From NCBI GenBank assembly GCA_023954255.1, contig JAMLIH010000014.1, forward strand, positions 1-48,974: a stretch of DNA of 48,974 nt, given 5' to 3'. The DNA is from Phyllobacteriaceae bacterium (lineage in GTDB: Bacteria > Pseudomonadota > Alphaproteobacteria > Rhizobiales > Rhizobiaceae). Every line of letters starts with the position of its first letter. The first letter of the stretch is position 1. Below, piece after piece: positions 46,231 to 48,974 of the stretch. A model generated the notes under the pieces. It saw only the letters and a list, made by a program, of their open reading frames with translations. It was not told the origin of the DNA and did not search any database. The position numbers were made by a program, and so were the translations under genes.

Positions 46231-46983
46231 TCACCTGCCCGCCGGGAGATGTTGCGGGCTGTGCCATTTCAGCGATGCCAGCAGGGAATGGGTAGTCGGC
46301 GTCCAGAGGCCGATGTCGACGCCGGCAGAATGCAGCATCTTTCCCACCCACTGGTTGCAGGGATTGAACAGGTTGAAATGCCCCGCGGCGAGGAAAAAGG
46401 CATCGCCCTGCCCGATGCTGACACCTGCAAGATGAATCGCCTCTCCGTTTCCGTCGCGCAGGAAACTCGCTTTGATGGCGGAAACCAGACGCCTGTAGGC
46501 AGGCAGGGAGAGGTCGATTGCAACAATGTCGCTGCTCGTTGTCAGATTGCCCATTGGCGTTATGCGCATGACGGGTTCATCGCCCGTTGCCGCCCGCAAG
46601 GTCGCCGATAGCGTGATGTCGGAATAGTTGCCTGCCGTGGTGTAGAAGGCGCGCGAACCCCAGCCGAAACCGAGATGGCGCAGAGCGGGATGGTCCAGTG
46701 GCAGCCCGGCTTCAACGAGCCGCGGGAACGCCGCCAGCAATTCCTCGGTGAGCGGCAGCGCGATGTCGGCATGCAGCAGGCCGGTCACCAGGAATATCCG
46801 TACGCTTTGCGGCGAGTCGGTTGTTTCTTGCGCCATGGCACCGGGTGTATCCATGCCCCGGGGGACAAGGGCGCCGCCAAACGCGGCTGCAAGGTAAAGC
46901 ATCGGCAGCACAATCAGGCATGCCAACACCGCCCCGCCCGCCTTGAAGGCGGTGGCGGGCCTGAGCTTCAGCCGCAAGGCCAC
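46231..46983 (-). CDS. DUF2459 / TIGR02117 family protein
   Basis: 250 aa with an N-terminal membrane anchor (AVLACLIVLPMLYLAAAFG) and a large probably periplasmic domain. The patterns GWGSRAFYTTAG, LFNPCNQWVGK and TPTTHSLL identify DUF2459 (TIGR02117). Function is unknown. The Cys in NPCNQWV and His in GLLHAD are candidate active residues by position only. It sits next to the aapP gene on the same strand, separated by 16 bases. Confidence 0.88.
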   Translation of the reverse strand: MALRLKLRPATAFKAGGAVLACLIVLPMLYLAAAFGGALVPRGMDTPGAMAQETTDSPQSVRIFLVTGLLHADIALPLTEELLAAFPRLVEAGLPLDHPALRHLGFGWGSRAFYTTAGNYSDITLSATLRAATGDEPVMRITPMGNLTTSSDIVAIDLSLPAYRRLVSAIKASFLRDGNGEAIHLAGVSIGQGDAFFLAAGHFNLFNPCNQWVGKMLHSAGVDIGLWTPTTHSLLASLKWHSPQHLPAGR

Positions 46984-46999: not shown

Positions 47000-48229
47000 T
47001 CAGTGCAGGATCTGGCTCAGGAACAGCTTGGTGCGTTCGTGCTGCGGGTTGTCGAAGAAGGCCACCGGCTCGTTCTGTTCGACGATCTGTCCCTCATCCA
47101 TGAAGATCACCCGGTTCGCCACCTGGCGGGCAAAGCCCATCTCGTGGGTGACGCACAGCATGGTCATGCCTTCCTGGGCGAGTTCAACCATGGTTTCCAG
47201 AACCTCCTTGATCATCTCGGGATCGAGTGCCGAGGTCGGTTCGTCGAACAGCATGATGCGCGGGTTCATGCAAAGCGAGCGGGCGATCGCCACGCGCTGC
47301 TGCTGGCCGCCGGAAAGCTGGCCGGGATATTTGTGTGCCTGCTCGGGAATCTTCACCTTGGTCAGATAGTGCATCGCAATCTCTTCGGCTTCCTTCTTGG
47401 GCATCTTGCGAACCCAGATCGGCGCCAGCGTGCAGTTCTCCATGATGGTCAGATGCGGGAACAGGTTGAAGTGCTGGAACACCATGCCGACCTCGCGGCG
47501 CACCTCGTCGATCTTTTTCAGGTCGTTGGTAAGCTCGATGCCGTCGACGACGATCTTGCCTTTCTGGTGCTCTTCCAGCCGGTTGATGCAGCGGATCATG
47601 GTCGACTTGCCCGAGCCCGACGGCCCGGCAATGACGATGCGCTCGCCGCGCATGACCTTCAGGTTGATGTCCTTCAGCACGTGGAAATCGCCATACCACT
47701 TGTGCATGTCGGTGATTTCCACTGCCACGTCGGTGTCGGAAACCGTCATGCCGGAAGACCGTTTCGGCGCTTTCGCCTCTGCCGGCATCGCCGCCGCCAT
47801 CATCGGTGCAGCGCTTGCCGCCTTCTTGGCCGGTGCTGCGCGTTTCGAGCGGACCTTCGGCGTGGTTGAACGCGAGGCGCTGGTTTTGGAAGCAGCCGCC
47901 TTTGCGGGCTTGGCTTTCTTCGCTGCAGGCTTCTTGGCCTTGGCCGGAGCGCTGGCCGCCACTTCCTTTGCATAGGCCTTGCACTGACCGATCCAGTCGT
48001 CGCGGTCGATGCGGCCCTTGAATTTCAGGTAGTCGTCCACATACTCGACTTCCGGCTTGGTCCACTTGGCGATCTGGGCATATTTGTAGATGCCCATCTC
48101 GTTGAGTACGCCCTCCAGCTTCGGTCCGACGCCGGAAATGCGCTTGAGATCGTCAGCCTGTTTCGGCTTTGCCATGCGCGGCGGCTTTTTGGTTTTCGGA
48201 GCCGTTTTCCTGGTGCTTGCTTTTGCCAT
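47000..48229 (-). CDS. aapP: AapP-type amino-acid ABC transporter ATPase fused to an N-terminal helix-hairpin-helix domain
   Basis: 409 aa. The C-terminal ~245 residues are a standard polar amino-acid transporter ATPase: Walker [10 protein letters not shown], signature LSGGQQQR, Walker B IMLFDEP and H-loop VTHEMGF. Residues about 25-92 form another domain, [20 protein letters not shown] through [11 protein letters not shown], which matches the HhH-like tail known on rhizobial NuoE proteins. A Lys/Ala/Pro linker (about 93-160) joins them. An alternative internal ATG at 47749 (residue 161) lacks a visible ribosome-binding site, while GGGG lies about ten bases before ATG 48229, so the fused start is favoured. 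Confidence 0.93.
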
Positions 48230-48303
48230 TTGGGTATCACCCCTTTTCGTGATTTCCGGTTTGGGCCACTGCCCGCTCTAGATTGGTTTGTCTTTAACCT
48301 GCG

Positions 48304-48974
48304 CTAACGGTGTGATGTATCGAGCCGCCGCTCCATGTAGTTGGAGTAGCGCGCCATGGAGTAGCAGAACAGGAAGAAGACGAAGGCGCAGAAGATGTAG
48401 CTGGTGATTGCCTGTACCGGGGTTGCCCAACTCGAGTCGGAATGGCTGAGGTTGATCATTCCGAGGAAGTCGAGCAGACCGATGATGGAAACCAGCGTCG
48501 TATCCTTGAACAGCGCGATGAAGGTGTTGACGATGCCCGGAATGACGATCTTCAGCGCCTGCGGCAGAATGATCTTCTGCATCATCTGCCAGTAGCCGAG
48601 CCCGAGCGCCATGGCGCCTTCGTACTGGCCCTTGGGAATGGCCTGAAGGCCGCCGCGCACCACTTCAGCCATGTAGGCGGACTGAAACAGCGTGACCCCA
48701 ATCAACGCTCGCAACAATTTGTCGAAGTTCATTCCTTCGGGCAGGAATAGGGGCAGCATCACCGAAGACATGAATAGCACGGTAATCAGCGGTACTCCAC
48801 GCCAAAACTCGATGAAGGTCACGCACAGAGTCTGAATCGCGGGCATCTGCGAACGCCGACCCAGCGCCAGCAATACCCCCAGTGGCAAGGCGGCGGTCAT
48901 GCCGACCCCGGCGATCACCAATGTCAACAGCAGCCCGCCCCAGCGCCGGGTGTCCACCGCCGACAGCCCGAACA
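48304..48974 (-). CDS. aapM: AapM-type amino-acid ABC transporter permease (partial)
   Basis: C-terminal 223 residues of a polar amino-acid transporter permease; the frame runs off the window end. The binding-protein-dependent transport signature (EAA region) is seen as [22 protein letters not shown]. There are several membrane spans, including the last at [14 protein letters not shown] at 48957 is inside the gene and not the real start. The gap to aapP is 74 bases, and the pair is expected to continue an aapJQMP operon beyond the window. Confidence 0.92.

Follow-up and report, generated by a model that had tools for sequence, protein, structure and literature searches.

Why should the ATPase of an amino-acid importer begin with a helix-hairpin-helix (HhH) domain of the kind that ends the complex I subunit NuoE? 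The question is raised by a gene in a 48,974-nucleotide stretch of DNA (the window), positions 1 to 48,974 of contig JAMLIH010000014.1 from a Phyllobacteriaceae bacterium (assembly GCA_023954255.1, here G000, a 3.34 Mb draft of 139 contigs that is 92% complete). On the minus strand, positions 48229 to 47000 form one unbroken frame of 409 codons and a stop. From N- to C-terminus the protein consists of a basic leader (residues 1-23, 48161..48229, net charge +9 over 23 amino acids), the HhH domain (residues 24-91, 47957..48160, net charge 0 over 68), a basic Ala/Lys-rich linker (residues 92-164, 47738..47956, net charge +17 over 73, 85% A/K/P/S/T/G) and an ATP-binding cassette (ABC) ATPase of the AapP type (residues 165-409, 47003..47737). 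A preliminary description of this locus had reported an in-frame fusion of two such parts through a histone-like, low-complexity basic linker, and the unbroken frame and the composition of the linker bear it out. Comparison with related genes shows the fusion, from leader and HhH domain through linker to importer ATPase, to be translated and conserved.

The fused frame recurs in 11 other genomes, giving 12 in total from five genus codes: G000, G002, G004 and G006 from the source genus, and G139, G209, G010, G064, G161, G225, G111 and G190. Because of this recurrence the fusion is not a matter of chance. Two separate genes are ruled out, since none of the 12 fused genes has a stop or frame break, and an assembly or contamination artefact is ruled out by the fusion's presence in 12 genomes of five genera, among them G004, a single contig of 3.36 Mb. 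The preliminary description would have been contradicted by close relatives in which the two parts are separate genes or in which a stop or start codon comes between them; the relatives examined are either fused or HhH-less at the AapP gene. An HhH domain on AapP is unusual, as had been suggested. Our family sample held 199 genomes, 182 of them with an AapP match at E 1e-140 or better, and 11 of the 182 genes are fused. Two more (G082 and G172) have a basic leader without an HhH domain, G072 (a stop within the match) and G213 (a contig edge) were left unclassed, and the other 167 were set aside as having a frame that was too short or contained a stop, no HhH domain in the sequence, or none adjoining at E 1e-18, the threshold at which an HhH domain adjoining AapP was sought in 46 genomes. 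The fused gene of G002 and the AapP gene of G003, which has the basic leader only, come from a separate search outside the 182-gene sample. Within the source genus, G001 has a more distant ATPase bearing a basic leader, and no AapP ATPase match was obtained in G005 (77% complete). A pattern scan of the genome contigs gave at least 13 loci from 593 pattern stretches; among the matches listed, L087 alone has a fused AapP, apparently on the same contig as G010:C4.

Is the front part of this frame made as protein? Seven gene pairs were compared for the ratio of amino-acid-changing to silent change (dN/dS), most of them saturated at silent sites. Between G000 and G004 (L009-L010) the HhH codons have 8.5 amino-acid-changing and 15.5 silent differences (dN/dS 0.11; Fisher p 3e-7), and between G139 and G209 (L064-L067) 5 and 21 (dN/dS 0.04; Fisher p 9e-13), the Fisher tests using rounded difference counts. 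For the same two pairs the ratios are 0.26 and 0.12 in the linker and 0.01 and 0.02 in the ATPase. This purifying selection on the HhH codons argues that the front part is translated, and it rules out a random open frame. The codons thus show a front part that is produced and kept under constraint, though a looser one than the ATPase is under. Some comparisons fit this less well: L009-L014 gave an HhH dN/dS of 0.38 and, over 12 codons, a leader ratio exceeding 1, and the leader of L064-L067 gave a ratio of 0.58 (few sites). A ribosome-binding site, AAAAGGGGTGAT (48236..48247, minus strand), precedes M1 and contains GGTGAT, a 6/6 match.

By its profile matches the front part is an HhH domain of the NuoE-tail/PhaH type. 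In a search of residues 1-161 the NuoE model NF009040 matched at E 9e-33, the match being confined to the tail (profile positions 303-387 of 400), and the tailed models of ribosomal proteins L21 and S2 at E 1e-23 and E 1e-15. Residues 19-88 match positions 164-233 of 234 of the NCBIfam model PhasinPhaH (E 3.4e-20), and our own HhH profile scores the AapP-fused domain at 118 bits in a match that spans the whole domain. The hairpin is Gly-Val-Gly (residues 33-35, 48125..48133, minus strand), and both of its glycines are invariant in the 22 domains of our alignment A1. In an AF2 prediction of residues 12-96 (mean pLDDT 82) the Gly-x-Gly hairpin sits between helices, and the predicted fold is weakly like RadA, NusA AR2, polymerase iota and a mitoribosome chain. 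A PDB profile search at E 0.01 returned two family members and then, weakly (E 0.002-0.006), RadA, DNA polymerase IV and ribosomal eL32. The linker has low pLDDT in the full-length model, which is no indication of disorder because much of the ATPase is low as well.

The rear part is the AapP-type ATPase that had been proposed, as judged from Pfam and curated-model matches (ABC_tran, residues 185-333, E 9e-39). It is complete, with all three of the motifs that we take to be Walker A, the signature and Walker B. Its score against the GlnQ model (NCBIfam NF007027) is 318 bits, under the curated cut-off of 379 bits, and its ABC body is at most 92% identical to unfused AapP within the family. The body and the gene order (in G004) are shared with AapP of the rhizobial AapJQMP importer, but ordinary AapP lacks the 164 residues that stand ahead of the ABC body here. 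Upstream, across a gap of 74 bases, lies an AapM-like permease gene (48304..48972, minus strand; Pfam BPD_transp_1, E 2.5e-24). It is the last permease of the importer set and the only gene of that set, besides the fusion, seen in the window, where the contig end truncates it; in G004 (L218) the order is an SBP_bac_3 binding protein, two BPD_transp_1 permeases and then the HhH-ATPase. Downstream, 16 bases past the fusion stop, is a gene for a DUF2459 protein (46231..46983, minus strand), a neighbour outside the system.

How unusual is such a domain on such a protein? The preliminary description took it to be normally the tail of NuoE, or part of related stand-alone proteins; the type is correct, but NuoE is not its only host. 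By sequence, the tails of NuoE (NF009040, PRK12373) and of L21 and S2 (PRK12278, PRK12311) are the same domain, and in these genomes it appears as a re-used module on about ten unrelated proteins, which makes a further fusion less remarkable than it might seem. The profile A1 gave 11 matches in the source genome: on AapP, NuoE (twice), a stand-alone protein by nuoE, a DppDF-type ABC ATPase, a tandem-HhH protein with an apparent membrane segment (two matches), L21, S2, cytochrome c1 and a protein starting MADY. The nuoE region itself is duplicated in this genome, on contigs C7 and C52 (L004 and L005; 98.6% identity over 3.1 kb), perhaps as strain variation in a draft genome. The domain is carried by all 15 chosen relatives (2 to 9 matches each) and by 41 of 46 further family genomes (E 1e-18), and in a class-wide draw by just 10 of 115 genomes, the source genome included (E 1e-7). 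Host labels come from our own motif patterns, with a Pfam check on 10 proteins only; single examples confirmed by Pfam are PntA, an RND pump, Xan_ur_permease, an alpha/beta hydrolase, cytochrome c1, DppDF, L15 and L22.

Several of these hosts are observations in their own right. PntA (transhydrogenase alpha) has an HhH tail in G010, G161, G064 and G225 (L183, L188, L194 and L200; Pfam check on L183 only). An RND (ACR_tran) pump of 1434 amino acids has the domain near its C-terminus in G064 and G161 (L202:579-4880 and L204; Pfam check on L202 only), and a xanthine/uracil-type permease has an HhH tail in G001 and G190 (L205 and L214; Pfam check on L205 only). The cytochrome c1 tails (L048, L051, L208, L209, L213) are strong in G003 and G006 and diverged in G004, G001 and G000. 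Proteins starting MADY (L128, L210, L211, L215) have one to three diverged, acidic HhH copies. Among metagenome-assembled genomes, an HhH tail occurs on ribosomal L15 of a Hellea genome (L094) and, with a basic linker, on L22 of a Campylobacteraceae genome (L099), which would lie outside the Alphaproteobacteria if the bin is clean; two Akkermansiaceae genomes have HhH proteins with an apparent membrane segment and the hairpin GVA instead of GVG (L090 and L091).

The place of the domain sets AapP apart. In all 12 fusions it is N-terminal, 290-370 residues from the C-terminus, whereas in NuoE, L21 and S2 it is C-terminal, and in the other tabulated hosts, the MADY protein excepted, no more than 25 residues follow it (the second charge and position table omits rows with X, short rows and repeats). 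AapP is thus the one clear N-terminal case of the module. A basic stretch precedes the domain in NuoE and in most L21 tails, as it does in the AapP fusion, and the flanks are strongly basic in most AapP, NuoE and DppDF cases. No description of an HhH-AapP fusion was found in the parts of the literature searched, which included a search aimed at such a fusion. Both the domain and the ATPase are known; what is unusual is their conserved fusion with the domain at the N-terminus.

The tails look to have been exchanged between genes. The last 21 residues are identical in NuoE and DppDF of G000 and cytochrome c1 of G006. On a tree of the domain (68 columns, 126 rows, 61 of 123 inner branches open; domains with X, those shorter than 55 residues and repeats left out) the host labels change 42 times, where 12 changes would be the fewest possible. 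Shuffled labels need 90.5 on average, with none of 200 shufflings as low as observed; exchange between genes is therefore not free. The 12 AapP domains need three changes on the HhH tree, where those of G010, G111 and G190 group beside DppDF tails, and on the ATPase tree the fused state needs five changes, at least two of them forced by starred branches. Since two unfused genes, L016 and L074, are nested in the main fused clade, gain of the fusion looks the same as its loss.

What, then, might the domain do on an importer? PhaH, a granule-associated phasin of Caulobacter (NCBIfam NF045508), is the sole source of functional data that we found for this domain, which in PhaH is C-terminal and attaches its host to something. 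According to a review (PMC13052382), the C-terminal end of PhaH binds DNA nonspecifically through the HhH domain (Salinas 2023), PhaH reportedly ties granules to the chromosome, and loss of phaH leaves the granules disorganised. The same domain (E 6e-18) occurs in Protein-O of the Dinoroseobacter shibae RC-LH1 (PDB 8yy9 chain O), likewise on a membrane complex. Protein-O differs in being a separate membrane-anchored subunit, of which residues 8-59 were traced and the tail was not, and the 2025 structure paper terms the function of such tails obscure (PMC12079452).

We tentatively favour a reading, short of an even chance, in which the HhH domain and its basic flanks are a nonspecific nucleic-acid tether on the importer. 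The hairpin and flanks would bind nucleic acid with no sequence specificity, like the reported PhaH, and the ligand would most likely be chromosomal DNA. An importer has two copies of AapP. With two such hands the importer could hold on to the nucleoid (or to mRNA) from its place in the inner membrane, perhaps by way of a flexible linker, and this attachment could determine where importers sit, gather them into clusters or make transport sensitive to contact with nucleoid or mRNA. A basic linker, with a net charge of +9 to +28 in nine of the 12 fusions, fits such a tether. The preliminary description had suggested that the domain might tether the transporter or add regulation; its observation of the fusion is confirmed and its interpretation partly supported, tethering and regulation being inferred.

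Some results fit a tether less well. In the G064 and G161 fusions the flanks are close to neutral overall, and on S2, the RND pump and the MADY protein the domain lies in acidic stretches. The near-neutral flanks of two fused relatives and the acidic setting on S2 make protein docking a serious rival, if on balance an unlikely one. On this view the HhH domain would bind a protein partner, be it another HhH tail, the tandem-HhH protein anchored in the membrane or a hub common to several hosts, and would thereby bring importers together with respiratory complexes at the membrane, the linker acting as spacer. No such partner was identified, however, PhaH is reported to bind DNA (the same review), and the strongly basic flanks of most AapP, NuoE and DppDF cases exceed what docking needs. 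That the domain and basic flanks bind rRNA or mRNA and hold the importer near ribosomes making membrane proteins is improbable: the S2 tails are acidic, and PDB sequence searches found no structure of a tailed S2 or L21.

It is also possible to see the module as a tail that gets copied from one gene to another within a genome and is tolerated where it lands, without serving any particular purpose on AapP. The 42 changes of host label, the shared last 21 residues and the lack of an HhH domain on AapP of G003, G082, G172 and most family members are in keeping with this; we nonetheless consider it very improbable, because the labels are far more clustered than shuffled ones, the HhH codons of AapP are under purifying selection and the fusion is retained in five genera. 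Least probable of all, in our estimation, is that an internal start yields a normal AapP of about 28-30 kDa alongside the fused form. The preliminary description expected products of 44 and 28 kDa; the computed masses are 45.6 kDa for the full protein and 28.5 kDa from M161. Sites precede the window's ATG 148 (5/6) and ATG 161 (4/6) and, in G002, ATG 157 (6/6), and M1 does not always have the best site, with matches of 4 to 6 of 6 across the 12 fused genes and just 4/6 in G139, G225 and G064. The best site in the window is, however, that of M1. There is no start at the M161 position in G139 and G209, since the residue there is Ala or Asp, and ahead of the MHKWYG motif these two have GTG or TTG codons only (sites 3-4 of 6). 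The equivalent Met is an internal residue in many unfused AapP, whose starts lie further upstream, roughly 20-40 residues ahead of KWYG in those examined and so somewhat upstream of the start that the preliminary description gave for relatives. Selection, moreover, shows that the HhH part is made regardless.

A wider possibility, which we think rather unlikely, is that this one HhH module is a shared cytoplasmic attachment tag, passed from gene to gene, for the membrane machines (complex I, cytochrome bc1, transhydrogenase, importers, pumps, photosystem) and ribosomes of the Alphaproteobacteria; the AapP fusion would then be one of the proteins recruited into an unrecognised system that anchors the inner membrane to the nucleoid or to some common hub. 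Fused AapP lends itself well to testing, since relatives carry the same enzyme in fused form, in unfused form and with a basic leader but no HhH domain. More broadly, a single small domain is used repeatedly, on respiratory, transport, ribosomal and granule proteins. If the tether reading is true, a domain of a nucleic-acid-binding type on the motor of an importer would couple nutrient uptake physically and directly to the nucleoid.
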